Assembly (NCBI GenBank): GCA_013420905.1
Contig: JAAXNY010000001.1
Coordinates: 3,224,001-3,288,000, forward strand
Origin: Collybia mongolica
Taxonomy: Eukaryota > Basidiomycota > Agaricomycetes > Agaricales > Clitocybaceae
Direction of reading: 5' to 3'
DNA: 64,000 nt
Shown: piece after piece, positions 4,742 through 36,547 of the stretch
Position numbering within the stretch: the first letter of the stretch is position 1
Layout: the number at the start of each line of letters is the position of its first letter
Notes under the pieces: model-generated
What the model saw: the letters and a program-made list of their open reading frames with translations, nothing else
Databases searched by the model: none
What the model was told of the DNA's origin: nothing
Position numbers and translations under genes: made by a program

Positions 4742-4770
4742 AAGTACTCCTTTGGGGGCTGTTGGGTATT
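4742..4770 (-). pseudogene. Tc1 transposase fragment left of the gypsy insertion
   Basis: The 29 bases match the transposase C-terminal coding region of the intact copy at 35295-35323 (TACTCCTTTGGG then a GGATATTC-like end). They are separated from the rest of the same pseudogene (11703-12511) by the gypsy element. GTATT at 4766-4770 is repeated at 11703-11707 as the target duplication. Confidence 0.75.
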
Positions 4771-5246
4771 TGTTACAAATTCCCTTATCCATTCGACCTA
4801 TCACTTCTTTTCTTCTTTCTCTTACCTATTATTGATTATCAGACACTTATCAACCTTATCTTTCAACATCTCCATATGCATTTCTTTTCTCATACTTACT
4901 CAGCTTTCTTACTCATCCTCTTCGATAGCTTACTCATCTTTATCTATAACAAATAGCGTAAACAACGCTTATCGGACTATTATGTATATATAGGGATACT
5001 TTAGCTTAGCTAGCTCTTTAGCTTGACCTAGCTGAATCAACCTTATTCATCTATCTTCTCAACGCGAACTCGATCCTATCTGCCTTATGAAGGGGGTAGT
5101 GTATCTTTGATCAGATAACTCGATAACTTGACTTTAGCCCTACTGAGGGAGTCAATAGACGTTGGACTTACAGAAGTCAACGGTCTAAGAACGAACGAAC
5201 GATACATTGGATTGACTTAGAGGATAAGGCCTAAACAGCCATAACA
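4771..5246 (+). repeat. 5' LTR of gypsy element
   Basis: The LTR runs from TGTTACAAATTCCC to GCCATAACA. A TATA-like TATATATAGGG at about 4986 lies some 30 bases before AGCTTGACCT (5020-5029), the segment complementary to the primer site just after the LTR, so transcription plausibly begins near there. Confidence 0.95.
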
Positions 5247-5248
5247 AA

Positions 5249-5258
5249 AGGTCAAGCT
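5249..5258 (+). other. primer binding site, self-priming type
   Basis: AGGTCAAGCT begins two bases after the 5' LTR and is exactly complementary to AGCTTGACCT at 5020-5029 inside the LTR, near the predicted RNA start. Tf1/sushi-type chromoviruses prime reverse transcription this way, with the 5' end of their own RNA instead of a tRNA. The 10-base pairing is seen; the mechanism is inferred from the family. Confidence 0.55.
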
Positions 5259-5524
5259 GATCAGAACTGTCAACCTATTAAGGTTCAGATGCAACGGCAC
5301 CACGATACGGATTAAAACCTGCAAGCAGCAGTAGGCAAAGCGCCTTTAGCAGCAAAGACTTCCAAGATGCAGAAGAGCAACCAAGACTCTCAGTAGTCAT
5401 ACAAACAGTAGAAACGCCCACCACGCCGAAACCAAAGGCAGAAAGTTCCAAAGGAAAGGAACCAGAGAAACCACCAAAACCCGAATCACCAGACTCCCCG
5501 ATACCACCTGACTCTGACGTAGAA

Positions 5525-6448
5525 ATGGTAGATGAACGAAGACCCACCGAAATCAAACTTAGCTCACCATACATCTTTGATGGAAACCGAAGAACTACAA
5601 AGGACTTTGTCCTTGACTGCAAAATGTATTTGCAGGCAAACGACAGAATTTATGATACAGATTGGAAAAAGATCCTTTACGTACTTTTATACATGAAAGG
5701 AGGAACAGCGGGACCATGGAAGAAATCCTGGTACGGAGAAAATAGTAACCACCCAGGAACTTTTACAACATTCATGACAACAGTTGAAGAAGCGTTCTCT
5801 ACTCCAGATGAAGCAGGAGACGCCAGACAGACTTTAAAGACAGTGCACATAACAGGAAACATGACAGCAGATGATTACATCATGGAATTCAAATCAGCCA
5901 CATCAGAAAGCAAGATCACTGAGAGTGAAGCGCTTGTTGAATATTTTATGGAAGGAATACCTCCTTTCCTGATGCAGAAGATTCTAACAATGGACAACCC
6001 ACCAACCACCATCAAGGGTTGGTACAAGAAAGCATCTATATTCGATACTCAATACAGATGTGCAAAATTGATCATAGCACGAGTTAAAGGAAACGCAGGA
6101 AAAACTACGGCAGGAAACAGTGGGAAAAAGTACAATTTCCAACAAAACAATCCCAAATACGTCCCGAACAGCAGTAGAGATCCAAACGCAATGGATATCG
6201 ATTGACTAAACATCCAAGAAAGGGATGAACACATGAAACGAGGACTATGCTTCGAATGCCATAAATATGGACATCGAGCATCAGATCATAAAGCAGGAGG
6301 ATCAATCCCTCAAACTCAACAAAAAGAAGAACCAAAGACACCAATGAAAGGCAAAGATGCCTACATGAAGATTTGAGCACTTATGGCAGGTTTAGATGAG
6401 GAAGAGAAAGAAGTCACTCTAAAGAATATGGAGGATGAGGGTTTTTAA
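5525..6448 (+). pseudogene. gag of gypsy element
   Basis: From ATG 5525 the frame encodes a retrotransposon gag capsid region (DFVLDCKMYLQAND, then an acidic middle) and later a CCHC zinc knuckle, CFECHKYGHRASDHK, at about 6250. The frame is also open upstream to about 5282 and rich in Pro, Ser and Lys, so the true N-terminus may lie earlier. In-frame TGA codons lie at 6203-6205 (before the knuckle) and 6374-6376. The related copy at 13200 has CAA at the second site but shares the first stop. The frame ends at TAA 6446-6448, directly after a slippery heptamer leading into pol. Confidence 0.8.
6439..6445 (+). promoter_or_regulatory. -1 ribosomal frameshift heptamer between gag and pol
   Basis: GGGTTTT sits in gag phase as G GGT TTT, followed at once by the gag stop TAA. 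Slipping back one base opens the pol frame (GFLKRQTESMS...), which then continues through protease. The heptamer has the canonical XXXYYYZ form and is kept in the second copy at 13315-13321. Confidence 0.7.
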
Positions 6449-9400
6449 AGAGGCAGACTGAATCGATGTCAGTACCTGCCGAAAACTATTCCATTACGCT
6501 GTCACCTGTAATATTAGGAGAAATGAATTGACAATCTCTATCTATTCCAATTACGGTGATTGAAGAACGGAAAAACGTCGAAACCCAAGCAATCGGACTT
6601 ATTGATTGCGGAGCTGGAGGAATTTTTATCGACAAAACATTTGTCGAAGAAAACAACATACAGACAACCCCTTTGAGGAAATCATACTTGGTTAGAAACG
6701 TAGACGGAACAAAAAACCAATCAGGAAACATTACAGATTGCATATGGACCAAGATTCGAATTGGAGATGAAGAAATCCGAATCCGACTGTTAGTTAGCGG
6801 ATTAAGAAAGGAAAACATCATCCTCGGATTACCATGGTTAAAACGACACAATCCTAAGATTGATTGGGAAAAAGGAACACTTGACTTTGGATCAGGAATC
6901 AAGAAAGGAGTTCTTTCGGAAGCAATCCGAAGAAATCTGGAAATCCGACAAATGAAATCAACACGGCAATACCCCAAGGCAATGGCAACAGAAGTACAGG
7001 AAGAATACCCAGAAGAAATCCCAAGGAATCAACCCCTCGAAGATTGGCAACCAATTCTTTTAGAAATCAACGAAGAAGATGATGAACCTGAAGTCAATCT
7101 ACTCAGGACATATATCTACCCAGAAGATAACGAAGAAGAATCCATTTGGATAAGGGCAAAAACATCGATATCACAGGAATTAGAGCACAAGGCAGAAACC
7201 AAAGATCAGAAACCAAAGAAGATGCTACCGAAATTCTATCAAGAATATGCGTCATTATTTGACAAAACAGATTCGGAAAGAATGCCGATATGACGGCCAT
7301 GGGATCATGCAATAGATTTAAAACCCGATTTCATTCCAAAAGATTGTAAAATCTATCCCATTAGCCCAGCGGAACAAGGAAAACTCGACAAATTCATTGA
7401 TGAAAACATGCGAAAAGGATATATCCGACCATCGAAATCCCCACAAGCATCACCCTTCTTCTTTGTATCAAAGAAAGATTCAGTGAAACTTCAACCAACA
7501 CAGGATTACAGAAGACTAAACAAAGGAACAATAAAGAACGCATACCCTTTACCACTAGTAGGGGAGCTTCTTGACAAACTGAAAGGGGAAAAATACTTCA
7601 CAAAACTAGATTTACGATGGGGATATAACAACGTCCGAATCAAAGAAGGCGACGAATGGAAAGTGGCATTTAAAACAAACAGGGGTTTATTTGAACCACT
7701 TGTTATGTTTTTTGGCTTATGCAACTCACCAGCAACATTTCAAAATATGATGAACGATATATACGCAATAGAGATTGATGAAGGATGGATCCTGATTTAT
7801 ATGGACGACATCCTCATTTACTCTGACAATATCGATGATCTACGAAGAAAAACCTTGAAAGTCTTGGACAAACTAAAGGAAAATGACCTATACCTGAACT
7901 TGGACAAATGCGTATTCGAAGCCACAGAAATTGAATACTTAGGATTAATCATCAAAGAAAATCAGATAGGCATGGAACCAACCAAATTGGCAGGAATTGC
8001 AGATTGGCCAGTCCCGACAACAGTGAAACAAGTCCGATCATTCCTTGGATTTGCAAACTTCTACCAAAAATTCATTGGACATTATGCTGAAATTAGCAAA
8101 CCATTAACAAATTTGACAAGGAAAGACATTGAATGGAAATGGACTCAAGAATGTCAGGAAGCATTCAACGGATTAAAACGGAAATTCCTGAAATCACCCG
8201 TTCTTATGATGCCAGACAAGAACAAACCATTCCATATCGAATCAGATGCGTCAAAATGGGCTACAGGAGCAGTATTACAACAACAGAATGACAATGGAGA
8301 ATGGCACCCATGTGGATATATTTCACATTCATTCACAGAAACTGAATGGAACTATGAGATCTACAACAGAGAATTACTAGGCATTATTTGAGCCTTAAAG
8401 ACATGGAGACATTATCTCGAAGGATCTCAATTTCCAACAGTAATTCTCTCAGATCATAAAAACTTAACATATTTCCAAACGGCACAGAAACTAAACCGAC
8501 GACAAGCAGGATGGAGTTTATTCCTATCACAATTCGATCTCAAACTGGTACACACACCCGGAACACGGATGATACAATCTGATGCTTTATCGAGAAGATC
8601 AGATTATGTCAACACAGAAGATACAGACAATGAAGATCAAATTCTATTACCAGACGACATTTTCATTAAAATGATTGACATAGGTTTACAAGAAGATTTG
8701 AAGAAATCGGTTGAAGAAGACAAATTATTTGCAAAGTCAATTGAAGCATTGAAGGAAACAGGAACAACACTGATTAAATCAAATTTATTTGATTGGAAAT
8801 TCAAAGATGGACTTCTGTTTTTCAAAAACAGATGTTATGTAGGACCAGATGCAAAACTGCGACAAGAAATAGTGCAAAGATACCATGACACGAAACCAGG
8901 AGGACACCCAGGTCAATATAAAACACAAGAATTGATCAGTCGAGAATACTGGTGGCCAGGTATGGGAGTGTTTATTAAAAATTACGTTGACGGTTGCGCC
9001 ACCTGTCAACAAATGAAGGTGAACACACACCCAACAAGACCGGGACTAATACCAATTGCAACAAATGGAAAACCATGTCCTTTCTCATTTGTCACAGCAG
9101 ATTTTGTCACAGATTTACCAGAAAATGATGGAAAAGACAGCCTCATGGTCGTGGTAGACCATGGCCTTACAAAGGGGGTAATTTCTATCCCTTGTACCAA
9201 AACAATTGACGCTTTAGGAACGGCAAATCTTTACCTGGAACACATTTACAAGAGATTTGGACTACCTGATACCTTTTTATCAGATCGAGGTCCTCAATTC
9301 ACAGCAAAAGTCTTCAAAGAATTAGGAAAACTCCTCGGAATAAAGCTTGTAATGAGCACGGCGTATCATCCACAAACAGATGGGGAAACAGAAAGATTAA

Positions 9401-10128
9401 ATCAAGAACTTGAAATCTACTTTCGCATGTTCTGTCAGAGCAACCCAGCAATATGGAAGGATCTTAACCCAATTGCAGAATTCGCGCATAATCAAAGAAC
9501 ACATTCCACAACAAAGAAATCCCCATTCTTCCTCATGATGGGATATGAACCACAAGCAATTCCATCAGCATTTCAAAAGACGAATGTCCCAAGCGTAGAA
9601 CAACGAATGATCGAACTGAATAAAGCACGAGAGGAAGCAATAGCAGCACACAATCTGGCAAGAAGAAAAGTAGCGGAAAGAACAACATAAGGCTTCAATC
9701 CATTCAAACAAGGAGAACATGTTTGGTTAGAAGGAACAAATCTTCGAATTCCTTATCCTTCAAGGAAACTAGCACCAAAAAGAGAAGGACCTTTCGAAAT
9801 TCAAGAAGTCCTCGGACCAGTGACATACAAATTGAAACTTCCATCTCAATGGAGAATTCACCCCGTGTTTCATGCATCTCTTCTCACACCGTATAAAGAA
9901 ACCGATACTCACGGACCTAACTTCTTAGAACCCTCACCGGATCTTGTGAACCAAGAAGAAGAATACGAAGTAGAAGGGATTATAAATCACCAACAACGAG
10001 GCCGAGGCTTCCAATACCTCGTGAAGTGGAAAGATTACTCATCCGCACACAACATGTGGGAACCTGAAAAACACTTAAAAAGAGCTCAAACGATACTTCA
10101 ATCCTACCAGAAGCTACATCGCCTCTAA
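6446..10128 (+). pseudogene. gypsy pol: protease, RT, RNase H, integrase, chromodomain
   Basis: One reading frame, broken only by nonsense codons (TGA 6529, 7291, 8389; TAA 9688), encodes the whole polyprotein. The protease core is LIDCGAGGIFID (about 6600), with Cys where Ser/Thr is usual. RT has YMDDILIYS at about 7800 and [13 protein letters not shown] at about 8040. RNase H follows with [13 protein letters not shown]. Integrase has an HHCC-like zinc region (YHDTKPGGHPG ... CATCQQMK) and a core with ADFVTDLP and HPQTDGETERLNQE. A chromodomain closes it: EYEVEGIINHQQ ... LVKWKDYSS ... WEPEKHL (9955-10070), the mark of chromoviruses, which target silent chromatin. Copy 2 has sense codons at these stop positions. 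Confidence 0.93.
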
Positions 10129-10179
10129 CCAACTATCATCTTTTATCACTCTCAACAAGTTCCAAACCTTTTCACAAAC

Positions 10180-11193
10180 ATGTTGTCTCCCACTGTCAAC
10201 AACTTCTATATCGCCACTGCCACTCCTCTCACCACTCCTCCCAACGCCCCGATTGTAAACATCACATCCCAAGAACATCTTGAACTGGCTACAAAAATCA
10301 TACATCGTCAGAAGTTTTTGTCGTGGTTCATGCACGAAGAACATTGTGAACGAATGATTCAAGCATTCAACAACCCACCATACAATCAACTCATCAAACT
10401 AGTCAAAAAATATCTAGAGATCAGAAACATGCTGTATAATCAAACAGCAGACATCAGTCGGATTCTCGACCAAACCACCGAAGAGCTAGTAGATACACAA
10501 GAATTCCAAATCTTAGAAGATCTAATCCCATTACTACAAGATGGAATTCGACTACCCACATCTATACCCTCGACACCGACAGAATCTACCAAAAGAAATT
10601 ATACAGTCGATAAGGAAATACAGACATCCCCTCCTAGAACTCCAACACCATCAACTACAAATTCCCCTATTTATCAGACTGAACCACTCCCAATCCCGCC
10701 CTTTTGCGAACCATCTCCTGCATCATCGGAACATTCCACTCCTGATCCAGCAGACATGGTTCCAAACAAAGAAGTATTTAAACATTTAAAAGGACAAAAA
10801 GCCACAAAATCTGTCATCAAAAAGAAGAAATCGCCCAAACCCATTAAATATACATTGAACCCGCTCAACTATGCCAGAAGTCGAGAAAACCCTATCGACC
10901 TCACTCAAGTCGAAAGAACGCTCATGAACAAGAACATATTATGTTCTAGATGCCTCAACTTCGGACATTCGTCAATACACTGTGAAAAACAATACTGTCC
11001 AATTTGTTTTCAACCGGCACCAGGACATCATCGTGACCAATGTCCTGAAAGACCTACAACTAGAACAGTAGGACATTATCAAATGTGGCGACAGTTTGGT
11101 GAAGAGTATGAAGAAGTAGATGACGGGATTGACGATCCTTTTGACTATCCAGAAGCCATCACAAACATGACGGGAGAACCTATTGATTACTAA
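10180..11193 (+). CDS. extra third ORF of the gypsy element, zinc-knuckle protein
   Basis: This intact 337-aa frame lies 51 bases after pol and ends 33 bases before the 3' LTR. Its first 130 residues are helical-looking (FLSWFMHEEHCERMIQAF, LVKKYLEIRNMLYNQ), followed by a Pro/Ser/Thr-rich linker (about 150-225) and a basic patch (KKKKSPKPIK). Near residues 250-290 there are two zinc-finger-like motifs: CSRCLNFGHSSIHC (CX2CX4HX4C) and CPICFQPAPGHHRDQC (CX2CX6HX4C). The tail is acidic. The knuckles suggest nucleic-acid binding. It is not envelope-like: I see no signal peptide or membrane segment. The same ORF is recognisable, with stops, in copy 2 (27645-28515). I do not know its function. Confidence 0.8.
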   Translation: MLSPTVNNFYIATATPLTTPPNAPIVNITSQEHLELATKIIHRQKFLSWFMHEEHCERMIQAFNNPPYNQLIKLVKKYLEIRNMLYNQTADISRILDQTTEELVDTQEFQILEDLIPLLQDGIRLPTSIPSTPTESTKRNYTVDKEIQTSPPRTPTPSTTNSPIYQTEPLPIPPFCEPSPASSEHSTPDPADMVPNKEVFKHLKGQKATKSVIKKKKSPKPIKYTLNPLNYARSRENPIDLTQVERTLMNKNILCSRCLNFGHSSIHCEKQYCPICFQPAPGHHRDQCPERPTTRTVGHYQMWRQFGEEYEEVDDGIDDPFDYPEAITNMTGEPIDY

Positions 11194-11207
11194 AGCTGGG
11201 ACGCTTT

Positions 11208-11226
11208 AGAGATAGAGAGGGGGTAA
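11208..11226 (+). other. polypurine tract of gypsy element
   Basis: AGAGATAGAGAGGGGG just before the 3' LTR is the expected plus-strand priming site. The equivalent in copy 2 is GGGATAGAAAGGGGG at about 31857. Confidence 0.7.
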
Positions 11227-11702
11227 TGTTACAAATTCCCTTATCCGTTCGACCTATCACTTCTTTTCTTCTTTCTCTTACCTATTATTGATTATCAGAC
11301 ACTTATCAACCTTATCTTTCAACATCTCCATATGCATTTCTTTTCTCATACTTACTCAGCTTTCTTACTCATCCTCTTCGATAGCTTACTCATCTTTATC
11401 TATAACAAATAGTGTAAACAACGCTTATCGGACTATTATGTATATATAGGGATACTTTAGCTTAGTTAGCTCTTTAGCTTGACCTAGCTGAATCAACCTT
11501 ATTCATCTATCTTCTCAACGCGAACTCGATCCTATCTGCCTTACGAAGGGGGTAGTGTATCTTTGATCAGATAACTCGATAACTTGACTTTAGCCCTACT
11601 GAGGGAGTCAATAGACGTTGGACTTACAGAAGTCAACGGTCTAAGAACGAACGAACGATACATTGGATTGACTTAGAGGATAAGGCCTAAACAGCTGTAA
11701 CA
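11227..11702 (+). repeat. 3' LTR of gypsy element
   Basis: It has the same length (476 bp) as the 5' LTR with six transitions between them, and is followed by the GTATT duplication at 11703-11707. Confidence 0.95.
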
Positions 11703-12511
11703 GTATTTCTTAAGTGCCTTCTTCAACACTACCCAGAGATGTTCAATGGGGTTGATGTCAGGGGATTGTGCTGGCCAGACCATAACATCAATGTTGTTGT
11801 CTTCAAACCACTTCGTTGCCTTGTTGGATGCATGTTTGGGGTCATTGTCCTGCTGAAACATCCTCTCTCCCTCTGGCATCTCCAGCTTTTCAAAGCTTTC
11901 CACTACTCCCCCATCCAAAATCTGGCAGTATTGGTCTGCATTCATAATCCCCTGGACCTCTGTAAGCACTCCTACTCCATTCCACCCCATACAACCCCAC
12001 ACCATAAGATTATTTCCTCCTCCATGTTTGACAGTAGGAGTGGTGGTTCTGTCAGAAAGTGGTTCTCCCTTCTTCTTCCAAGTATAAGTCCTTCCATCTG
12101 ACCCAATCCTGTTGATTTTGACCTCATCTGACCATAAGATCCTTTTCCAATCCTCCACTGTCCAGTTTTCATGGTATCTTGCCCATTGAAGATGTTGCAG
12201 TTGATGAGCCTTTTTGAGAAGAGGACATTTTCTCCTGACAACACTACAAAAGTCATTCTTTTTGAATGCATTCCTGACTGTTTGGGATGTGACAGGGTTG
12301 GGAAGAGTTTGGTTGATGAAATGGGTGGCCTCTACAGCATTATCAAGCCTTCCAGTGGTGATTTGTCAAATAATTGACTGTTTGTCACCAGGAGAGAGCT
12401 TAGAAGGACGTCCCCCCCTGTGGTTTTCCTTGTCCATATCCAGTTCCTTCTTGATTCTCCCAATGGTAGACTTTCCCAGAGTGGTTTTGGACTGGATCTG
12501 ATGCAAGGTAT
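11703..12511 (-). pseudogene. Tc1/mariner DD34E transposase, N- and C-terminally interrupted
   Basis: On the minus strand the frame encodes the helix-turn-helix region (TLGKSTIGRIKKELDMDKEN) and the catalytic domain with WSDEVKINRIG, QQDNDPKHASNKA and SPDINPIEHLW, which are the three acidic positions of Tc1 transposases. It resembles the intact 339-aa protein at 35165-36184. The C-terminal part is cut off by the gypsy element and resumes at 4742-4770. The N-terminal part is lost where a copia-type LTR abuts at 12512. An in-frame stop lies after KQSII (near 12366). Confidence 0.88.
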
Positions 12512-13807: not shown

Positions 13808-13815
13808 AGGACATA

Positions 13816-14027
13816 CAGTAGGTCAAAAAACTGTCCCAATGTTTGGTCATTTTATAATGATTTACTTATAACAGAGTACTGGGGATTAATATCATTCTGA
13901 GAAAAATATATATGATACTACACCATATTAGCTTTGAAATGAGCCCTTACTTTTCTTATTTGAATAAAAACTCATTTCATAACAAATTAAACAAAATAAT
14001 TACTCATTGGGACAGTTTTTTGACCTA
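13816..14027 (+). repeat. left 212-bp terminal inverted repeat of Tc1-type element
   Basis: It begins CAGTAGGTCAAAAAACTG and ends CAGTTTTTTGACCTA, so the arm is itself bounded by short inverted repeats. Its partner is 24188-24399. Confidence 0.85.
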
Positions 14028-14180
14028 TGCTTAATTTTGGCAAGATCTTTACTGCAGCAAGCTTTAACATCATGTGATGTATTGTGGGAACAATAAACAA
14101 AGTCATGTGACCATGTTGATATAAATTCAACATGTTTCCATCATTACAATCATTCTTTCCTTCCCCCATCATCCCATGTA
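14028..14180 (+). other. leader region of the interrupted Tc1 element
   Basis: The stretch resembles, in reverse, the sequence upstream of the intact transposase (about 36185-36330): both share AACATGT, AGTCACATGAC-like and TTGTTTATT words. The transposase start would fall at about 14176, where copia sequence takes over. Confidence 0.55.
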
Positions 14181-17100
14181 TCTGCCACTTGAGCTGTTCC
14201 AGGAATGTGATAAGTAGAAATAATTCCACTTTCCACTTTTTCCCTTAACCAGAATAGTCTGGTGTCAATATGTTTCATTCTTCCATGGTGTTCAGGATTC
14301 CTGGTCACATTTAATGAAGACATATTGTCAATCATTAAAATGGAAGAGTTTTGGATAGGATACCCAAGTTCTTGCATAAGACTTCGCATCCAGAGGATCT
14401 CTTTGCCTGCCTCCACAGCAGCAACATACTCTGCTTCAGTGGTGGACAGTGTGACAATTAGTTGCAGTTTGCTGCTCCAGCCTATTGCTCCTCCCCCCAA
14501 AATTGTGACATACCCACCAGTAGAGCGCCCAGTGTCCACACAGTCTGCATGAGAGGCATCACAGTAGGTCTTGAACTCCAGTGGTTCACCATTTGCCTGG
14601 TAGGTCAACTTGTAGTCCATGGTGGCCTTGCAATATCTGAGCATATGCTTTGCAGCAGCCCAATGCTTAGGACCAGGATTAGAGTTATACCTTGCTAGCT
14701 TGGCTACACCTGCAGCTAGATCACCTCTAGTCATACTGACAAGATATTGAAGTGATCCAACAAGACTGAGATATGGGACATTTCGCATTTCCTCCCTTTC
14801 TGCATCTGTCTGTGGGCACATTGACTGGGATAGAATAAGTCCTGGGGTCATAGGAGTGCTGATGGGATTGCAGTCTGTCATGTTGTACTTTTCCAGTATG
14901 TCCACAATGTACTGTCTCTGGGAGAGGGCAATGGTGCGATTTGGACGATCTCTGATGATTTCCACACCCAATAGGAACTGAGTGGGCCCAAGGTCACGAA
15001 GTTTGAAGTGTTTAGACAGCTCCTTGACTGTTCTGTCAATTTCTGCATTGGATTTTGAAGCCAGAGTGATATCATCAATATAGATGGGGACAATGATCTT
15101 GACTTCTCCCTTTACATACAAGTAAATGGAGCAGTCAGATTCCAGTCTGGTGAATCCCATGCTGTCAAAAACACCATGTAGCTTCTTGTTCCACTGCCTG
15201 GCAGCCTGTTTGAGTCCATAGAGCGATTTCTTGAGCTTCAAGACCTTGTTTCCAACCACATAACCCGGAGGAGGACGCATATAAATGTCTTCCTCCAGAT
15301 CTCCATTGGGGAAAGCAGATGTGATGTCCACAGAGCGCAGTTCCATGTCTTCAATTTCAGCAATAGCTAGAATCAGTCTCAGAGCAGCTGGGCGAAATGT
15401 AGGTGCAAAGACTTCATTATAGTCAATGCCAGGACGTTGTGCACATCCCTTTGCAACCAGTCTTGCCTTGTAGCGCTCAATTGAGCCATCTGAATTGTGC
15501 TTGACCTTGAATACCCATCCTGAGCCAATTGCCTTCCTATCTTGAGGCAGATCAATGATGTCCCATGTGCCATTCTGTGTCAATGACTCTATCTCTTCAT
15601 CAACAGCCTTCTTCCACTTGTCAGCATCCTTAGACTTCATGGCAAGGTGCCAGTTCTGGGGATCTGGCTCAGGACCAAGGGCAGCACCAGCAAAGTGGAC
15701 AAATTCAAATCCATCCTCATCCATTTCTCCACATGTGAAATTAGCCTCAATATCACTATCACCATCATCCAGGACAGGCTTGGATGGCCTTACAATCCAA
15801 TATTCCTGGGGAGGTCTAGTAGCCCTAGATGACTTCCTGGTGGGGAGTACAGTGCCTTTGGGAGGCTTTCTACCTCTAGGTCTAACAGGACCATCATCCA
15901 AGTCAGGATCATGTTGCTCAATGGGTAATGGGTAATTGGCTGGATCAATGTTTGGGATTTGGACATTATGCTGGACAGGTGGTGCTTGGGCAGGGGCTTG
16001 GGCAGCAGGGGGAATAGGTACAGGGGCAGGTGCAGGGGCAGGTGCAGGACGCTTTGGGGCTGATTTTAGATTATCATCATCATTATCATCATCATACCCC
16101 CCAAAATCAGGCATATTGCTTGAGTCTGGCACTGGACTGCTATCAGGACAATTTGGACCAACAAAAATAGGTGGGGGTGGGCCAGAGGGAACAGGGACAC
16201 TGCCAGATGTCTTCAGACCAGGGAAATAACGCTCATCAAACTCTGCTTTGTCTGAGATCATGGTCTTCTTGGTGGTGGGGTTGTAGAACTTCCAACCCTT
16301 GTAACCATCAGCATATCCAATAAAGACACATTTCTCCATGTGTGACTGCAGAGTCTTGCGCTTATCCTTCTGCACAAAGACATAGGAGGTGCATCCCCAC
16401 ACCCTGAGATGACTGATATCAGGTTTAGTTCCAAACCAGCCATAGTGAGGAGTTTTGGGTGCTACAAGCGTTGGAATGTGATTCCAGATGTGTACTTGTG
16501 CATCCATGCAATGCTCCCAAAAGGATGGGGGCAACTTGGACTCTGCAAGCATAGCAGTAATGTCATCAGACATAGTCCTGTTAGCTCTCTCTGCAACTCC
16601 ATTCTGCTGTGGTGTGTTTCTGCATGTGTGTCTCCTGGTAATCCCACAATGGTCTGTGAATTGAATGAACTCCTTTGACATGTATTCACCACCCTTGTCA
16701 TCCTGCAATGTCTTGATAGTGTAGCCCTTGTCCTTCCAATGGTTCTCAGCATAAGCCTTGAACTTCTGGAATGCCTGGAATGCCTGAGACTTTTCCTTGA
16801 GTGCCATCACTGCTCTGAAATCCAAGAAATCATCTATGAAGGTAATCCAGTAAAGTGCTCCAGAGTGCAATTTTGTAGTCATAGGACCATGCAAGTCACT
16901 GTGGATGAGTTCCAGAGGCTGTGTAGCATGATTTCCAGTAGGGGGATAGGATTTGGACTTCATTTTGCCTGCCAGACAAGCCTCACAGATAGGATCTGGC
17001 TTGGTTGTAGAATCCATGTCCATGCCTGTTGCCAACTCCTGTTTAGCCATAGTCTTAACCACTGCATAATTGTGGTGAGCCAGTCTTCTGTGCCATAAGG

Positions 17101-17767
17101 ACAAGTCCAGGGGAAGAGTAGAGGCAACATTAGCATACTCTGAAATGCATTGGACTGTTCCATCAAGCTGGGCACAGTTGTTGGACTTGATTGTGGCAGA
17201 GAACAAGGCCTGAGATGAGTTCTTGAGTCTGAACCACAATGCCTGACTGTCAATCACAATATTGAAACCCTTTGCTCTGGTGAGGTATAGGATAGAGAGG
17301 AGGTTGTTCCGAAGCCTAGGTACATGTAGGACTCTAGTGAACTCCACTGGATACAGATTTTGCCCTTTTACTACAGGATTAAACACAACTGTCCCAATCC
17401 CAGCTGAATATATCACACTATTGTCTGCCAGCCTGATTGGTACAACATGAGGGCAATAATTATGCACCCAATTGCGATGTGGGGTCATATGCGAAGAGGC
17501 CCCAGAGTCTGGAAGCCAATTGAAGTCAGCATCTAGTTGCAGTGGGCCAGACAGATCAGAATGATCTGGGAGGGAGGTACTTGCATTTCCAGCATATTCT
17601 GTGACATCCTCATCAGAGGCATTGTCCTGTGCCTTGTCCTTTTTGTCCTTGGATTCCTCCTTGGACTCCTGTGCCTTGTTTGCAGTCTCCTTGTGCTTTT
17701 TGCCTTTATTTTTGCCACCATTTGAAGTCCCATTAGACTTCTTTGCCTCCTTTTGTGCATTGATGTA
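14181..17767 (-). pseudogene. copia element A: protease, integrase, RT, RNase H
   Basis: The minus-strand frame is free of stops for about 1,200 codons. In order: a Lys-rich linker (ESKEESKDKKDK), aspartic protease LPDSGASSHMT, GAG-pre-integrase LSLWHRRLAHHNYA, integrase core with IHSDLHGPM and a D...D...E set ending NGVAERANRT, a Pro-rich linker, RVT_2 reverse transcriptase with YIDDITLAS, and RNase H with YCDASHADC and STTEAEYVAA. The product would be the copia gag-pol polyprotein. The frame breaks off after YHIPGTAQVAD, where FTKPL-type residues normally follow, and joins Tc1 leader sequence. Its gag half is at 21328-21846, displaced by element B. Confidence 0.92.
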
Positions 17768-17772
17768 CAGTG

Positions 17773-17802
17773 TATTAGAATAGGAAGGTGCAGGGATGTC
17801 TG
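17773..17802 (-). repeat. last 30 bases of the lost 3' LTR of element B
   Basis: CAGACATCCCTGCACC and CTATTCTAATA match the end of the 5' LTR (20934-20963). Immediately before it on the minus strand lies mid-pol sequence, so the deletion joined pol to the LTR tail at CAGACATCCC. Confidence 0.8.
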
Positions 17803-20538
17803 GGCAGGAGAGTCCCTTGAGACAACCCACCATGATCCTGGGGGCCTTACAGACCGAGCTGACCTTCTCAATGGTTCAGATTCATCAAGGTCAGGATCAT
17901 AATCATTGCCTGGAAGTGGGTAGTTTGCAGGATTGATAGGAGGGACATTCACAGTGTGCTGGAGGCGAGGAGGATTGTGATTTTGAGAGGAGCTAGATGG
18001 AGCTGATGAGGGCTGGTGAGAGCGTGCACGAGTGCGTGCTGGAGAGGCATTGGAGGGGGCATTGCGAGGAGCACGACCACGTGGTCGGACAGGAGCAGCA
18101 GGGGCAGGGGCAGGAGCAGGAGCATTCTCATGTTTAATGGTAGCATTTGGCTTTGGAGCAAGATTTGGCATATCTGCAGATTCATCATCATCCCCCCCAA
18201 AATCAGGTCCAGAGCCTGATTCCAAACCTTCATCACCCTCAGCTGGCTTGACCTTAAGGTTAACAATGGGGTGGGGTGGAGGAGGGGCACTAGTGCGAAG
18301 TGGTTGCCTTAAACCAGGAAAGTAGCGCTCATCAAATTCAGCTCTCTCAGAAATAATGGTCTTCTTGGTGGTAGGATTGTAAAACAACCATCCCTTGTAC
18401 CCAGCAGGATACCCAATGAATACACACTTTTCCATGTGGGACTGCAATGATTTGCGCTTATCCCTCTGAATGTACACATATGCAGTGCACCCCCAGACTC
18501 TGAGGTGTCCAACATCAGCCTTGGTGCCATACCAACCAACATGTGGTGTCTGTGGTGCAGCAGAGGTAGGAATGCGATTCCAGACATGTATGTGTGCAGC
18601 CAGACAATGCTCCCAAAATGATGCAGGCAGGTGGGACTCAGTAAGCATAGCAGTAATGTCATCTGCCATGGTCCTGTTGGCTCGCTCAGCAACACCATTC
18701 TGCTGTGGTCTGTTGCGAGTAGTGTGCCTTCTCTCAATGCCACACAGGTCTGTGAATTTAATGAACTCATTGGACATGTACTCTCCCCCCTTGTCATCCT
18801 GCATGGCCTTGATCTTCTTGTCTTTGAAGTGGTTCTCTGCATGAGCTTTAAAGACTTGGAATGCATATAGAGCCTGGCTTTTCCGCTTCAGTGGCACAGA
18901 AGCCTTGAAATCAGTGCAGTCATCAATGAATGTCATCCAGTAGAGTGAACCAGCATGGGATTTGACTGGTAAAGGCCCATGCAGATCAGTGTGAATGAGT
19001 TCCAGAGGCTCCTTTGCACGATGCCCAGTAGAGGGAAAGGGATTAGACTTCATTTTGCCTGCAAGGCAAGGTTCACAAATGGGATCTGGCTTCTGAGATG
19101 AGTTGACATCCATTCCTGTTACCAATTGCTCTCTGACCATTCTGCGCACATCTGCATAATTATGGTGTGCAAGGCGTCGATGCCACAGGGAGAAGTCAAG
19201 GGGCAGGGTGGAAGCGAGATTTGCATACTCCGAAATGGGTTCCACTGTTCCATCCAAGTGTGCACAGTTATTTGCATTAATGGAAGCACAGAACAAGTTG
19301 GTGTTGTCCTTCCTCAATCTGAACCACAAAGCCTGATTATCAACAAAGATGTTGAAGCCTTTGACTCTTGTTAAATATAGGATTGAGAGGAGGTTATTTC
19401 GGAGTTGGGGTACATGCAGGACTCTGGTAAACTCTACAGATTGAAGATTCTTTCCTCTTACAACTGGGTTGAAGACCACAGTGCCCACTCCAGCTGAATA
19501 AATGATGCTGTTGTCTGCTAGCTTGATTGGGACGCGATGGGGGGCATAATTTCGGACCCAATGGCGATGGGGGGTCATATGAGAAGTGGCCCCTGAGTCT
19601 GCAAGCCAATTGAAGTCAGCATCAAGCTGGAGTGGAGTGGAAAGATCAGAATGATCAGGGAGACGAGTACTTGCATTGCCAGCAAATTCTACTTTGGGGT
19701 CATCATCATTGGAAGTGTCCTTGTGCTCCTGTGCCTTATTAGCACCCTCATTTCGCTTTCTCTGCCTGGGCTTGTTGTTGCCAGTAGTCTGCTGCTTGGC
19801 ATTGTCTCTGGCCCTCTTCTGTGCAGCTTCAAATGCAAAGCACTTGGCCATAATGTGGCCAGTCTTGCCACAGAAGTCACAAGAGAGCTTTGGAGTGCTG
19901 GCAGCCATTGCTAGCTGGTCAGAAGCCCGACGACGACGAGAGGTCTCCTCTGTGACAAAGGCTTGATGCACTGTAGCCTTGTCCAGTGTGTCCTTCATCA
20001 AGAGTGTGGAGACAAAAGCACTGTAGTCCTCTGGAAGGGCTCTGATCAAAGCCATAGAAGCGAGCTCAGCATCCAGTTCAGCTAGAGTAAAGCTGGCAGG
20101 GCGCAAATTTTGAATGGTGGAGATGGATTCCTCAACTCTGTTCATCAAACTCTGCAAGGATTCCTCCTCTTGCTTCCTGATAGAGAACAAATCGTCATAG
20201 GCATTGAATCTGGTGCCCGGACGCCTCTGCATGTGCACAGCTTCAAGGGCAGTCCACATCTTGATGGGATCATCAGTGATCTTGTTGAAATGGATCTTCT
20301 GAGATGGCTCCACCATTAAGAATATGTGACCAGCAGCTTTGTCTGATTTCTGAAGATAGGCATCAACAGCAGTGAGCTGCTCCAGAGTGGGAGGTGAGGA
20401 CAGAGTAGGCTGTTTAGATGAGCCATCTACAATCCTCCAGAGGCCTTGGGAGCGAAGCCAGGCAGCCATATCACCAGCCCATGAAGTGTAGTTGTAGTCA
20501 TTGAGGAGAGGAAAGGTGGGTTTAGTGAGGGAAGACAT
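17803..20538 (-). pseudogene. copia element B gag-pol, truncated before RT
   Basis: The frame is intact from ATG 20538 (MSSLTKPTFPLLNDYNYTSW). Gag comes first, with a UBN2-like region (FLMVEPSQKIHFN) and zinc knuckle CDFCGKTGHIMAKC. Protease follows (LADSGATSHMT), then pre-integrase (LWHRRLAHHNY), integrase (IHTDLHGPL, DDKGGEYMS, QQNGVAERANRT) and an Ala/Pro-rich linker (APAPAPAAP). After RRSARSVRPPGSWWVV the copia similarity ends and the frame runs on through the LTR stub into A sequence. RT and RNase H are absent, so this copy could only move in trans. Confidence 0.9.
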
Positions 20539-20912
20539 TGAAAAAAGCGAAATTTGGAGATGGGATAGAGACTCTGAGCAGGGTTTATATCAACCAGGAA
20601 TACAACCAAGGTCCTTTGTAACAACAAAAGGCAGGGTTCCACAGCTGAGCCTTCAGGAGTGTGTGCAGGAAGTGAGTGCTGAGAGTATTCTACTGTAACT
20701 AATAAGCAATCCCAATTGTAGCACCTCCAGGAGCACCAGGATGATTACTGGGTTATTTCCTAGGTAGGATGAAAACCAACCCACTGAAGAGTATGGTCCC
20801 AAAAGTTGGATGCCCTTGTAACTAGAGGGGGAGCACAACACTATAAAGGCAAAAATGCGAAACAGAGACTGTATATAGGCAGCAATGGAGTGGATACTTG
20901 AACTAGAGCTGT

Positions 20913-20933
20913 TAGAGCGCGGGGCCCATAACC
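20913..20933 (-). other. primer binding site of copia B, half-tRNA type
   Basis: Directly after the 5' LTR the minus strand reads GGTTATGGGCCCCGCG. Drosophila copia uses GGTTATGGGCCC-type sites that pair with the anticodon region of a cleaved initiator tRNA-Met. The match of the first 12 bases is seen; the primer is inferred. Confidence 0.6.
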
Positions 20934-21322
20934 TATTAGAATAGGAAGGTGCAGGGATGTCTGTGACAGCCAACAGCTGAAGTCCGAAGTAAGTAACTGG
21001 TTTATTGATCAAACAGAAGCTGTACTAACCTGAAGTCCGAAGTAAGTAACTGGGGACTTCAGGACTATCTACTCTCCTATATATATGTGCTAGAACAATA
21101 AGGAGAGTAAAGACAATAAGAACAATAAGAAGATGATAAGGATCTGATCATCTGGTATGATAGTGATCAGCATCTGGTCATCTGGTCAGATGCCAAGAGA
21201 TCAAGAACAATAGAGACAATAGTCACCAGACCATGATAACCATCTGATAAGGATCAGGTGGATCAGGGGTGACAGAAACAGCATAAGGCTGTGTATGGAG
21301 ATGCATGTGGTCAGTTCTAACA
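20934..21322 (-). repeat. 5' LTR of copia element B
   Basis: The 389-bp LTR runs (minus strand) from TGTTAGAACTG to CTATTCTAATA, with imperfect terminal inverted repeats. It includes a TATATATATAGGAG box near 21080 and a repeated CAGTTACTTACTTCGGACTT unit. Confidence 0.85.
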
Positions 21323-21327
21323 CAGTG

Positions 21328-21846
21328 TGCACTTGGTCTGGATGTGACCCCCTTTGCCACAGAAATGACAACTATTGCCAGAGGTGGATGCAGCCATGGC
21401 AGTCTGCTCTTCTGTCCTTCTGCGACGAGATTGGTCCTCAGTAATGAATGCCTGATGGACTTTTGACTTGTCCAAGTCAGAAGTGAGGAGTAAACTCGTC
21501 ACAAAGTGATTATAGTCCTCAGGAAGAGCCCTAATCAAAGCCATGGTTGCTAGTTCTGAGTCCATGTCAGCCAGAGTATACTTCTCTGACCTAAGACTTT
21601 TGACATTGGTGATGGCCTTTTCAACTCTGTTAATAAGAGTTTGAAGGGACTCTTCCTCTTGCTTTCTGATGGAGAACAAGTCATCCAGGGCATTAAAGCG
21701 AGGTCCAGGACGCTTCTGGACATGTACTTTGGCTAGTGCCTCCCACATTTTGACAGGATCCTCAGCAATTCCATTGAAGTGGACTCTCTGGGGTTCTTCA
21801 ACCATAAAGAAGATCTGGCCAGCTGCCTTTTCAACTTTGATGAGGT
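21328..21846 (-). pseudogene. copia element A gag fragment
   Basis: It encodes gag from AAGQIFFMVEEPQRVHF to the zinc knuckle CHFCGKGGHIQTKC, parallel to B residues of about 68-225. The N-terminal 60-70 codons, primer site and leader are missing; an LTR abuts directly at 21847. The frame continues in phase into A's pol once B is removed. Confidence 0.9.
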
Positions 21847-22113
21847 TGTTAGAATTGACCTGTATATATAGCTTAGCTTGGTATTGTTTTGCTTCTTTCA
21901 TTGTTCTATTGTTCTATTGTTCTATTGTTCCATTGTTCTATTGTTCCATTGTTTATTGTACTCTACTATTGTTCCTACAGGTATATAGGTGTAGAGTAGC
22001 TCGTTCTGGAGTCCCCAGTTTCTTACTCAGGACTCCAGGTTAGTACTCACTTATATTAGTGAATATACTAGTTTCTTACTCAGGACTCCAGCTCTAGGCT
22101 TCCACCTTTAACA
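21847..22113 (-). repeat. copia-type LTR next to element A gag
   Basis: The minus strand reads TGTTAAAGGTGGAAG ... CAATTCTAACA, the same family as 12512-12797. It may be A's own 5' LTR brought next to gag by deletion, since its end resembles that of B's LTR, but no matching target duplication is visible. Confidence 0.7.
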
Positions 22114-23532
22114 TTGTTATGTTGCCGTTGATTGGCATTTGGTGCATATCACATACTACATATAACCATACTCATATAGCTAGCCATTTTCAAGATATTG
22201 AGTATTATAGATTCCAGGAGCATCCACATTGATTTGTTTGGCTATGCTTTTGGCCAAGTAATATCTGAATGTGATATTAAAATAGATATAACAAGAGATT
22301 ATAATCAAATTTAGAAAGAGACAAACAAATATAAATATACATTTCTTGATGTACCCCCTCTATATGTCTAGGAGTAAGTAGTAGCAATTTCAATTGTATC
22401 TATTAGCCTTGTATTTGCTGAGATATGCATCATCTATATTGTGGGAACTTCATTAATATTGTTTGTTTGGCCAGGTGTTGGCAAAGTAATATACAGATGA
22501 TCTTCATTTGTAATATGTAGTAAAAAAGCTGTTGTTGATAATGAGATTTGGAAGAGTACAAACAACTACAAACACATGTAAATATACACATAATGTATTC
22601 CTTTACAATGCCTAGTAGTAGCATGTCCATCAGCTTTGTATTTGCTGAGATATGCATCATTTATATTGTGGGAAATTTCTTTAGTATTATTGTTTGTTTG
22701 GCCAGATGTGTGATGAAGTGCTATACAGACAGCAAGAAAAATGATGTTGATGATGTTTAGAAGAATACAAACAAATATAAACACATACAAATATATACAT
22801 GAGGTACTACTTCACCATATCTAACATCAGCAATTTAAATTACATCCATAGGCCTTGTTGTTGTTGAGATATGCAATGATTTATATTGTGGGAACTTTGA
22901 TGTTATTGTTTGTTTGGCTGGCTGTGTGGCAAAGTCATACACAAATGTGATATTCATTTGTAACATGCTTGTAGTGAGAGAGCTACTTTTGATCATGATA
23001 TTTGATGGTGTATAAACACATACAAATACATATAAATATACCAATTGGGTAGTCCTTCACCATATCTAGTAGTAGCAATTTAAATTGCATCCATAGGTCT
23101 TGTCATTGTTGAGATATGCAATGTTTTGTATTGTGGGAAAAGTTTGACCCAAAGTGGAACAAGCCTCTTGTAATCATGCTTACATTTGTCAACTACGCTG
23201 TTAGCTCTTTATGCAGTGGAGTTTTTAATTAATTATTGAGATATCCCAAGAAAAAGGCCAATTAACTCGAATTTATATTATTAAATGTAGCCTATGTTAG
23301 TAGTTGCCTTTTTTGCTCAAAATCCGCAGGTCGGCTAATTTTGATTCTCACAGTTAGAACAATATTTCCACGACTACCAAAGTCTTACTAATGTACTTCA
23401 AAAAGTTTACTGATCATGTTCTAATGAAATCTCAGAACACTTCAAACTTACTAACCGTGGGAAAAACAACACTGGATCTTGTTGGGTACACTGAATTTTC
23501 CCCGCAAACCCAGGATGATGAACAAGTTACTT
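22114..23532 (-). repeat. repeat family arm, inverted copy of 28646-30010
   Basis: This AT-rich sequence matches 28646-30010 in opposite orientation (for example CAAACCCAGGATGATGAAC and GCAAATACAAGGC words). Its outer end is ATAAGGACT. No gene is seen; the short hydrophobic frames are not conserved between the copies. Confidence 0.75.
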
Positions 23533-23556
23533 ATGTAAACATAAGGACTCATAACA

Positions 23557-24007
23557 CACAAATGGTAGGAATCGCCTGTTTGAGTTCAGGTTCAAGTGCT
23601 TGAAAGCACTAAGTTTTAATAGTATTAGTCAAGGCCTTTTTCACTGATCTCTCAATGGGTTTGATTCAGACAAAGCCCTAACACAAGTGTTAAGACTTTT
23701 TGGTATATTTTTATAATATCTTTTGATCCAATAGACTGAGTACCAAGTGTACATTCAATTATTAACAATCCCAAGCAGATCTATAAGTCCAAGTGACTTA
23801 TTAAAACAACAGTACCAAGTGCACCAAAGGCCAAGTGCCTAGTAATTCCAACGCACAATATGAGTACTAAGTTCCAAATGAACTGAACTCTTCAATTCTG
23901 CGATCTCTTTAGCCAAATGCTTCAAGACAATTCTAATCAAGACAATTGAAGCAATCCAATCCTTAACTCATGTGTGCAATAGTGTTTCAACAAATATGAT
24001 TTGTATA
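23557..24007. mobile_element. candidate SINE-like insertion with 24-bp target duplication
   Basis: The 451-bp insert lies between 23533-23556 and 24008-24031, which read the same 24 bases with one mismatch (CTCATAAC versus CTCGTAAC). Long duplications of this kind are left by target-primed non-LTR insertions. Near the 5' end GGTTCAAGTGC (23589) resembles a Pol III B box, but the A box is weak and badly spaced. Confidence 0.45.
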
Positions 24008-24030
24008 ATGTAAACATAAGGACTCGTAAC

Positions 24031-24161
24031 ATGAGTTGTGGGATAGGGTGGTAGTGGAATGGAATAGAATTCCACCAGAAACATGCCAGACACTTATAGA
24101 AAGCATGCCTAGAAGGGTTCAAGCAGTTATTAAGGCAAAAAGTGGTCATACCAAGTATTAA
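24031..24161 (+). pseudogene. Tc1 transposase C-terminal fragment
   Basis: The plus strand encodes ELWDRVVVEWNRIPPE followed by CQTLIESMPRRVQAV and GHTKY plus stop, almost the same as the end of the intact transposase. It is the 3' part of the ORF interrupted since about 14176. It shows that the two 212-bp repeats belong to one element. Confidence 0.88.
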
Positions 24162-24187
24162 TTGTGTAAATAGAGACTTTGGAGATG

Positions 24188-24399
24188 TAGGTCAAAAAAC
24201 TGTCCCAATGAGTAATTATTTTGTTCAATTTGTTATGAAATGAGTTTTTATTCAAATAAGGAAAGTAGGGGCTCATTTCAAAGCTAATATGGTGTAGTAT
24301 CATATGTATTTTTCTCAGAATGATATTAATCCCCAGTACTCTGTTATAAGTAAATCATTATAAAATGACCAAACATTGGGACAGTTTTTTGACCTACTG
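24188..24399 (-). repeat. right 212-bp terminal inverted repeat of Tc1-type element
   Basis: This is a near-perfect inverted copy of 13816-14027, followed by TA at 24400-24401. Confidence 0.85.
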
Positions 24400-24401
24400 T
24401 A

Positions 24402-27644: not shown

Positions 27645-28645
27645 CATGTCCTCCCCAACTATCAACAATTTTTACATTGCCACTGCCACCCCACTTACCA
27701 ATCCCTCCAACACTCCAATCATCAACATTGCATCTCAAGAATGCCTTGAACTGACCCGAAAGATCATGCATCACCAGAAATTCTTATCATGGTTCATGCA
27801 CGAAGAACATCGCAAATGAATGATCCAAACATTCAACCAACCACCTTACAACAAACTCATCACATTAGTTGAGAAGTATTTGGAGATCAGAGACATATTA
27901 TACAATCAAACCACAGACATCAGTTTAGCTCTAGATCAAACCACCAAGGTGCTAGTTGACACACAAGAATTTTGAATCCTTATTCCATTACTACAAGATG
28001 GAATTTGATTACCAACATCCACACCTTCGATGCCTACAGAGTCAAATGAAGGGACCCTAAATGTTGATGAAGGAGTACAAACATCACCTCCTATCACACC
28101 AACACCATCTGCTCCTAATTCCCCTATCTACCAATCCAAACCCCTTTCAATCCCACCCTTTTGCAAACCATCTCCTTCACCCTTGCAATCTCCCACCCCT
28201 AATCCAACAAATATGGCTCAAAACAAAGAAGTGCTTAAATATTTAACTGGCCGGAAAGGTACTAAATGAGTTATCAAAAAGAAGAAATCTCTGAAACCCA
28301 TCTGGTACACAATGAACCCTCTCAACCATGCAGGAAGTCAAGAGAAATCCATTGACCTCACTCAAGTGGAACGGCATATCATCCACAAGAACATATTGTG
28401 TGCCAAGTGCCTCAACTTTGGACATTCGACTATAGATTGCAAAAAGTATCATTGTCCAACATGTTATCAACCCACTCCAGGACATCATCATGAACAATGC
28501 CCCGAAAAACCATAACCCAAACAGTAGGGTATTATCACAATTGGTGATGACATGGAGATGAATGAGAAGATGTAGATGATGGGATCAATGACCCTTTTGA
28601 CTACCCAGAAGCCATCACAAACATGACAGGGGAGCCAATTGATTA
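27645..28645 (+). pseudogene. gypsy copy 2, third ORF remnant
   Basis: It is homologous to 10180-11193: NNFYIATATPLTNPS, FLSWFMHEEH, then CAKCLNFGHSTIDC and CPTCYQPTPGHHHEQC. Stops occur at several places (near 27817, 27973, 28266). Retention of both zinc motifs in a second copy shows that the ORF belongs to the family. It ends at CCAATTGATTAC, where a 3.2-kb repeat interrupts. Confidence 0.85.
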
Positions 28646-34935: not shown

Positions 34936-34937
34936 TA

Positions 34938-35149
34938 CAGTGGCTCAAAAAACTGCCCCAATGTTTGTACATTTTTGAAAGATCAATATGGTATGAAGTG
35001 CTGACATAAGCAGGGGACCTGGGGTAATTATGTAAGATACTATGACATCGTGGCTTTCCAATGGACCCTGGATCATGTGATTTGGATCAATACCCATTAA
35101 GCTATAGGCCAAACAAAATGATTACTCATTGGGGCAGTTTTTTGACCCT
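34938..35149 (+). repeat. left terminal inverted repeat of intact Tc1 element
   Basis: The arm starts GGCTCAAAAAACTGCCCC (from the fourth base) and ends GGGGCAGTTTTTTGACCC, so it is palindromic at its own ends. Its partner is 36334-36545. Confidence 0.9.
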
Positions 35150-35164
35150 CTATTAATTTTCTAT

Positions 35165-36184: not shown

Positions 36185-36333
36185 GATGGTGGTAAGAGGT
36201 CAAGAAGATGATTGAACCAATTCCAACATGTCAAATTGATACAAATAAAGTCACATGACATTGTTTATTCTTCCCACAGTCCATAATGTTCTTGCATTGG
36301 ATCATAAATGCCAGAATAATGGAAAATAAGATA

Positions 36334-36545
36334 AGGGTCAAAAAACTGCCCCAATGAGTAGCCATTTTGTTTGGCTTATAGCTTAATGGATATTGATCCA
36401 AATCACATAATCCAGGGTCCATTGGAAAGCCACGATGTCATAGTATCTTACATAATTACCCCAGGTCCCCTGCTTATGTCAGCACTTCATACCATATTGA
36501 TCTTTCAAAAATGTACAAACATTGGGGCAGTTTTTTGAGCCACTG
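36334..36545 (-). repeat. right terminal inverted repeat of intact Tc1 element
   Basis: This is an inverted copy of 34938-35149 with about five mismatches that I can see, followed by TA. Confidence 0.9.
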
Positions 36546-36547
36546 TA

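Follow-up and report, generated by a model that had tools for sequence, protein, structure and literature searches.

The window studied here is a stretch of 64,000 nucleotides from the mushroom Collybia mongolica (assembly GCA_013420905.1, contig JAAXNY010000001.1, positions 3,224,001 to 3,288,000). It contains a chromodomain Ty3/gypsy element (chromovirus) of ~6.9 kb at 4771-11702, designated copy 1, which carries a third open reading frame (ORF) behind gag and pol. This frame, ORF3, encodes 337 amino acids (aa) from ATG to TAA at 10180-11193 on the plus strand, as do all features of copy 1 described below. In the chromovirus family ORF3 is a true accessory gene, and it is retained by selection. 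It is present throughout the family at a fixed position. ORF3 is a new gene family, while an extra ORF in this place is a known phenomenon.

ORF3 matches 120 places in its own genome (46 Mb, 26 contigs). The list of reverse transcriptase (RT) sequences comprises 122 scored of 423 first-look candidates, and the position counts are lower bounds. Among the 83 RT hits with 85-100% identity, 71 have ORF3 within 3 kb downstream, and in 61 of the 71 the distance is 1.788-1.817 kb. In nine further hits ORF3 is 3-8 kb away, bringing the number within 8 kb to 80; these nine read as interrupted by insertions and were not checked singly. The remaining three have no ORF3 within 12 kb. The test for ORF3 in other members of the family, proposed in a preliminary description of the window, did not refute the gene. 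Based on identity to the window copy, ORF3 sequences fall into groups A (~87-92%), B (~78-83%), C (~75-77%) and D (~30%). Numerous fragments, and a few places whose identity is in between, belong to none of these groups.

The protein database contains two relatives of ORF3 among 5.77 billion entries, and repeat searches returned the same pair. P0002 from Collybia nuda (334 aa) matches over the full length with an E-value of 1.7e-19, and P0003 is 251 aa long. A search of viral contigs gave 77 pattern matches and no relative. The 120 genomic matches, the two database homologues and an in-frame ratio of nonsynonymous to synonymous distance (dN/dS) of 0.11-0.13 indicate that the frame is more than chance.

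In the next family, whose RT is 59-60% identical, ORF3 is found within 4.5 kb downstream of only 1 of 39 RT hits, and this through nesting. One next-family chromovirus (L043, 1-5944), which lacks ORF3 and whose Gag has a standard knuckle, is inserted in an ORF3-bearing element. The pol of this inserted element abuts its polypurine tract directly, so that either one family gained ORF3 or the other lost it. Derivation from a host gene, one of the options offered in the preliminary description, is not supported. No host gene was recognised outside the elements in the C. mongolica genome, the only host searched, where 38 of the 120 places have no RT within 3 kb and were not checked singly. Among these 38 are D-type copies, short fragments and the partners of the nine RTs at 3-8 kb.

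The ORF3 protein is composed of a helix-rich N-terminal part (~31-120), a P/S/T-rich linker, a basic patch, two zinc knuckles (253-292) and an acidic tail. The helices come only from a low-confidence structure model. The net charge is +11 over residues 199-252, containing the basic patch, and -10 over the tail (293-337). The sequence IKKKKSPKPIK precedes the knuckles, which are CSRCLNFGHSSIHC (CX2CX4HX4C) and CPICFQPAPGHHRDQC (CX2CX6HX4C), both exact. The frame behind pol with both motifs and the basic patch was thus described correctly from the start, and so was its counterpart in copy 2 (~27646-28646, plus strand), in which a stop-broken frame still has both motifs readable.

The eight C/H ligands of the double knuckle block (10942-11043) are invariant in 12 of 12 aligned sequences, including the window copy. 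The tandem CCHC pattern with conserved ligands that characterizes zinc knuckles is present in all 12 rows, one of which is from C. nuda; in the first knuckle of two Collybia-type rows, the H is separated from the following C by five residues instead of four. All eight ligands are among the 28 invariant columns (P 1.2e-8 for random columns, drawn from columns 97-337 only, as two rows are partial at the N-terminal end). Lineages A and D and that of C. nuda all retain the basic patch. A 38-nt stretch encoding it (10789-10826) is the sole DNA similarity detected by blastn between the window ORF3 and group D, with 82-84% identity in five of five D loci. Against Pfam, the window ORF3 has two matches, both below cut-off, and the best E-value over 12 ORF3 homologues is 0.011, to the zinc family zf-C4pol. 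A search of solved structures gave a best E-value of 1.5.

Purifying selection on ORF3 was examined by dN/dS from Nei-Gojobori counts. The copies were picked by ORF3 score and mostly have an intact ORF3, and the pairs are not independent. The ratio is 0.12 within A (13 copies, 78 pairs), 0.11 between A and B (78 pairs), and 0.12-0.13 between A and C (13 or 26 pairs). These values are well under 1, the outcome that the preliminary description had named as the sign of purifying selection. Single A-A pairs range from 0.06 to 0.59, and the linker reaches 1.04, on few changes. The A-B ratios for other pieces of the element are 0.07 for gag, 0.13 for protease, 0.05 for RT, 0.05 for integrase and 0.125 for the end of pol. 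Within ORF3, the A-B ratio is 0.085 in the N-terminal part, 0.10 in the knuckle-bearing C-terminal part, and 0.16 in the linker, the least constrained. For A-B, four of the five wrong frames of ORF3 give 0.98, 2.21, 1.13 and 2.75. The fifth, antisense frame f1, shows 0.21, presumably because the degenerate positions of f1 and of the true frame coincide. Third codon positions of ORF3 have about threefold more changes than the mean of the first two.

Stop codons had also been put forward in favor of ORF3. The counts for copy 1 are correct: gag and pol together have six in-frame stops (five TGA and one TAA) and ORF3 has none. They fail as evidence for ORF3, as 57 paired copies have 52 stops in RT and 46 in ORF3 (Wilcoxon p = 0.28). 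This comparison needs near-full RT and ORF3, and partial sequences (52 of the 120 places with ORF3 and nine of the 83 RT hits) were excluded. In the unselected near-full-length lists, 37 of 68 ORF3 copies and 29 of 74 RT copies are stop-free. An apparent deficit in 19 chosen copies, with 4 stops in 6343 ORF3 codons (0.63 per 1000) against 2.35-6.90 per 1000 elsewhere, was rejected as selection bias, because these copies were chosen by ORF3 score and the unselected lists show no difference. TGA accounts for 74 of 82 stops in the chosen copies, and the two TGA in the window gag are at positions where other copies carry R or Q. Such stops are as would be expected if methylated CpG decays.

The sequence comparison between groups B and D indicates that the ORF3 cassette was exchanged as a unit, bounded by the stop codons of pol and ORF3. 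The RT of D is 87-89% identical in protein to that of the window. Three B copies were compared with a single piece of D pol and three pieces covering the D junction; the evidence for D pol is one sequenced piece plus RT hits. B and D pol are 91.5-92.6% identical in DNA over 2.4 kb and then 85-88% identical to the pol stop. From the pol stop to the ORF3 stop there is no DNA match longer than 30 nt, except the 38-nt basic-patch stretch in two of nine comparisons, and the ORF3 proteins are only ~29% identical. Identity returns at 73-82% on the 3' side of the ORF3 stop. In one comparison (L044), the match stops 4 nt past the pol stop and restarts on the final base of the ORF3 stop.

The B-D synonymous distance (dS) is 0.21 in integrase and 0.38 in RT, and jumps to 1.6-2.1 in the whole ORF3 (1.03-1.30 in the C-terminal part, saturated in the N-terminal part). 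Fast evolution in place was rejected as the cause of the D lineage, as the synonymous distance jumps as well. Such a rise in dS is not what positive selection at the protein level would produce, and we conclude that ORF3 was replaced whole in one subfamily. The A, D and C. nuda proteins are roughly equidistant (26-31% identical); with P0002 as the query, D is found at 35-38% and C at 35-36%. Exchange is also observed beyond ORF3. The RT of one A copy out of 13 (L042) differs by 2% from C in DNA, while the other 12 differ by 12-14%. It is likely that L042 is a recombinant.

The ORF3 protein may be an auxiliary nucleocapsid or RNA chaperone acting on the genomic RNA of the element; we assign this function a probability of about 0.45. 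Retroviral and retrotransposon nucleocapsids have tandem zinc knuckles beside a basic stretch. ORF3 shares both with them, but forms a gene of its own downstream of pol, and no relation to Gag was detected. The order of parts in ORF3 resembles that of an RNA-binding adaptor. We infer zinc binding, RNA binding, self-association, a role in packaging and the mechanism of exchange. Selection would keep ORF3 since its protein is necessary or advantageous to the element. The helical N-terminal part would mediate self-association, and the basic patch with the two knuckles would hold the genomic RNA. ORF3 could then assist Gag in gathering, protecting or packaging the RNA. Template switching between co-packaged RNAs would probably cause the replacement of whole cassettes.

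The Gag knuckle is CX2CX4HX4H, with H for the final C, in all 17 copies hit by the pattern among the 20 scanned; the pattern also permitted C, Y, R or Q at the final place. The Gag of one element read from the ORF3-less family has the standard CX2CX4HX4C. This contrast fits a division of labour between Gag and ORF3. The auxiliary nucleocapsid or chaperone is ranked first because of the order of parts and the difference in the Gag knuckle.

Several points weigh against this function. No Pfam zinc-knuckle family was listed at E-values up to 1 among the 12 ORF3 members. Profile comparison with hhalign gave probabilities of 0.2% and 6% against the own Gag and the next-family Gag, the 6% match being an 18-column knuckle stretch of the outgroup Gag. 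Duplication of Gag was rejected as the origin of ORF3 on these grounds, and the earlier suggestion of a second nucleocapsid finds no support in the sense of descent from Gag. AlphaFold on three sequences gave a mean predicted local distance difference test (pLDDT) score of 38.6, a confidence too low to use. Gag may also have a functional knuckle in its CCHH form. Within D, dN/dS is 0.26-0.63 (three pairs with few changes, one copy with a stop), and between A and D dN is 0.86 and the ratio is 0.35 at saturation. As the D pairs are few and the A-D pairs are saturated, purifying selection is well established for groups A, B and C alone, both inside each group and from one to another. The deep divergence of the lineages would also fit a protein fighting host defence. 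The proposed function was read from sequence, and read-through from pol is excluded as a general route of translation (see below).

It is possible, if doubtful, that ORF3 is an exchangeable accessory gene, either a zinc-knuckle, RNA-binding antagonist of silencing by the host or an RNA export factor, whose divergent cassettes circulate between near-identical mushroom elements like the accessory genes of complex retroviruses.

Considered separately, an export or regulatory factor is rather unlikely. In this case ORF3 would bind unspliced element RNA in the nucleus by means of the zinc knuckles, with the basic patch serving as nuclear signal, and carry it to the cytoplasm, like CERV for Cer1 of Caenorhabditis. 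As described in the available part of the report (PMC10309623), CERV occupies the envelope (env) place between pol and the 3' long terminal repeat (LTR), shows no resemblance to env, and, like ORF3, has helices, a basic patch resembling a nuclear signal and a Cys-rich part presumed to bind RNA. Compared by description only, the Cys-rich part of CERV is a possible C4 finger, unlike the CCHC-type knuckles of ORF3 (PMC10309623). Inspection by eye of the interval that separates pol from ORF3 revealed no AG conserved across subfamilies, and the conserved YAG nearby (10108-10110) is inside the pol coding sequence, which argues against an export factor.

A counter-defence role is comparably improbable. 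ORF3 would shield the element from fungal silencing by binding a silencing protein or RNA that is small or double-stranded, and exchange would renew it. The three lineages with just 26-31% identity, and the replacement of the whole ORF in an otherwise conserved element, are expected of a gene in conflict. The mean dN/dS of 0.11-0.13 within and between A, B and C is not, although single A-A pairs reach 0.59 and the linker 1.04.

A captured passenger, staying open by chance with no role for the element, is highly improbable. The stop frequency in ORF3 is about equal to that in RT, and copy 1 alone proves nothing. The passenger is nevertheless refuted by the dN/dS of 0.11-0.13 between subfamilies, unless selection acts on RNA structure throughout ORF3, and the third-position excess and the ligands conserved over three lineages are also against it. 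An envelope-like gene for cell-to-cell spread, to which only the position points, has next to no likelihood, as ORF3 has a basic patch and zinc knuckles and no hydrophobic segment (19-residue hydropathy maxima of 0.71 in the window protein and 0.56 in P0002, with no dedicated signal-peptide or membrane program run), in agreement with the absence of envelope features noted at first.

Ordinary Ty3/gypsy elements had been said to have no ORF at this place, which does not stand, as extra ORFs there are already known elsewhere. Plant elements with extra ORFs are similar to ORF3 in the place, the sense orientation (in some), the presence in most copies of a family and the unsettled function. In the available parts of the plant reports, the extra ORFs are described as env-like or antisense with no mention of zinc, whereas ORF3 is a fungal zinc-knuckle gene. 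In bdelloid rotifers, a family-specific ORF3 after pol was gained repeatedly and is common to unlike elements, like the fungal ORF3 (PMC5408684). The types described in the available part of that report are GDSL, DEDDy, coiled-coil and transmembrane proteins, and the zinc knuckles of those elements are in gag or upstream of RT (PMC5408684).

Most fungal Ty3/gypsy elements surveyed encode only Gag and Pol, according to the accessible part of the survey (PMC2864245). An additional ORF, to which no function is assigned, and a dUTPase are reported there, so some chromoviruses code beyond gag and pol, as here (PMC2864245). The additional ORF is given in that part without sequence, zinc motif or selection test and may be identical to ORF3 (PMC2864245). 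No description of ORF3 was found in the literature search, which did not cover most subscription journals or the figure of PMC2864245 that marks the additional ORF, and an earlier notice is possible.

Selection on this third gene equals that on protease in strength, and in one subfamily the gene was replaced as a unit. It provides a system for asking which functions a retrotransposon requires in addition to those of Gag and Pol. It bears on whether simple elements acquire accessory genes as complex retroviruses did. The related family without ORF3 in the same genome permits direct comparison.

In copy 1, ORF3 starts 51 nt past the pol stop. Here, as in many A copies, pol and ORF3 share a frame with a single stop between them. 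Read-through from pol was rejected as the general route of translation because the frame varies between copies and subfamilies, differing in L011, L014 and L015 of group A and in B, C and D copies. Re-initiation, an internal promoter or splicing may serve instead.

A hairpin, CTAAAGC-TGGGAC-GCTTTAG, encloses the ORF3 stop codon on the 5' side of the polypurine tract (11190-11209) and covaries between subfamilies. This is the variant of A; that of D is TTGAAGC-TGGGGC-GCTTCAA, and L016, L023 and L028 have TTAAAGC...GCTTTAA. The covarying hairpin was noted in the window copy, in these three and in L053-L056. The alignment includes 18 of 38 copies in 16 distinct rows; those left out include L021, broken in this region, and L057, which lacks the hairpin. 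Of the hairpin cells, 98.2% are paired, and two of seven pairs are changed on both sides, in 10 cells. The covariation score of 0.243 was reached by 0 of 500 shuffles, whereas two doubly changed pairs were reached by 293 of 500, and the changes represent few events. The folding of the hairpin alone is unremarkable (z -1.65, -0.70 and -1.61). Speculatively, the hairpin could aid plus-strand start or packaging.

The order of components in copy 1 is LTR, gag, pol in the -1 frame, ORF3, hairpin, polypurine tract and LTR. The 5' LTR (TGTTACAA...CATAACA; 4771-5246) and the 3' LTR (11227-11702) were defined from sequence, and the 5-bp target duplication GTATT flanks the element at 4766-4770 and 11703-11707. 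With these, the order protease, RT, RNase H and integrase and a chromodomain ending pol identify copy 1 as a chromovirus. The gag frame (5525-6448) has two TGA stops in copy 1 and the zinc motif CX2CX4HX4H. Immediately 5' of the gag stop (GGGTTTTTAA at 6439-6448), GGGTTTT (6439-6445) is a candidate site for -1 frameshift into pol under the slippery-site rule. The pol frame (6451-10128, stop at 10126-10128) encodes protease, RT, RNase H, integrase, an SH3-like domain and the chromodomain, with four internal stops. At its C-terminal end Pfam Chromo matches with 62.3 bits. The protease scores 27.9 bits for gag-asp, just below the cut-off of 28.2, and 26.4 for RVP_2, above the cut-off of 20.3. The polypurine tract (11210-11223) was recognised by eye.

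Right behind the 5' LTR, AGGTCAAGCT (5249-5258) is a candidate self-priming site complementary to a site inside the LTR. Tf1 is reportedly a precedent for self-priming from the element's own transcript start. Among 20 copies scanned, 14 have a 5' LTR start. The script found the complementary 10-mer in 13 of them; in the 14th it gave an end-of-slice artefact, but the 10-mer can be read in the surrounding sequence. In L045, both partners of the candidate priming pair carry a matching change (AGGTTAAGCT). The LTR pairs are 96.0-99.6% identical in the 13 of 20 full-size stretches that are comparable (the L043 pair belongs to the nested element), suggesting that the family moved recently.

The window contains other elements. 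Copy 2 is apparently interrupted at 13814-24401 by ~10.6 kb between 214-nt arms that are 98% complementary. This insert has two copia-type pol frames on the minus strand (14153-17833 and 17536-20538), with repeats ~2.09 kb apart. A Tc1/mariner-like transposase frame (DDE_3) at 34936-36547 is located within 229-nt inverted arms, 95% complementary, and a 76% relative of part of this element starts at 11732. Open frames of 305, 539, 587 and 357 aa at 37285-39364, 40173-41933 and 50455-51525 have no Pfam match at E 0.01. A DDE_1 transposase-like frame is found at 654-1733.
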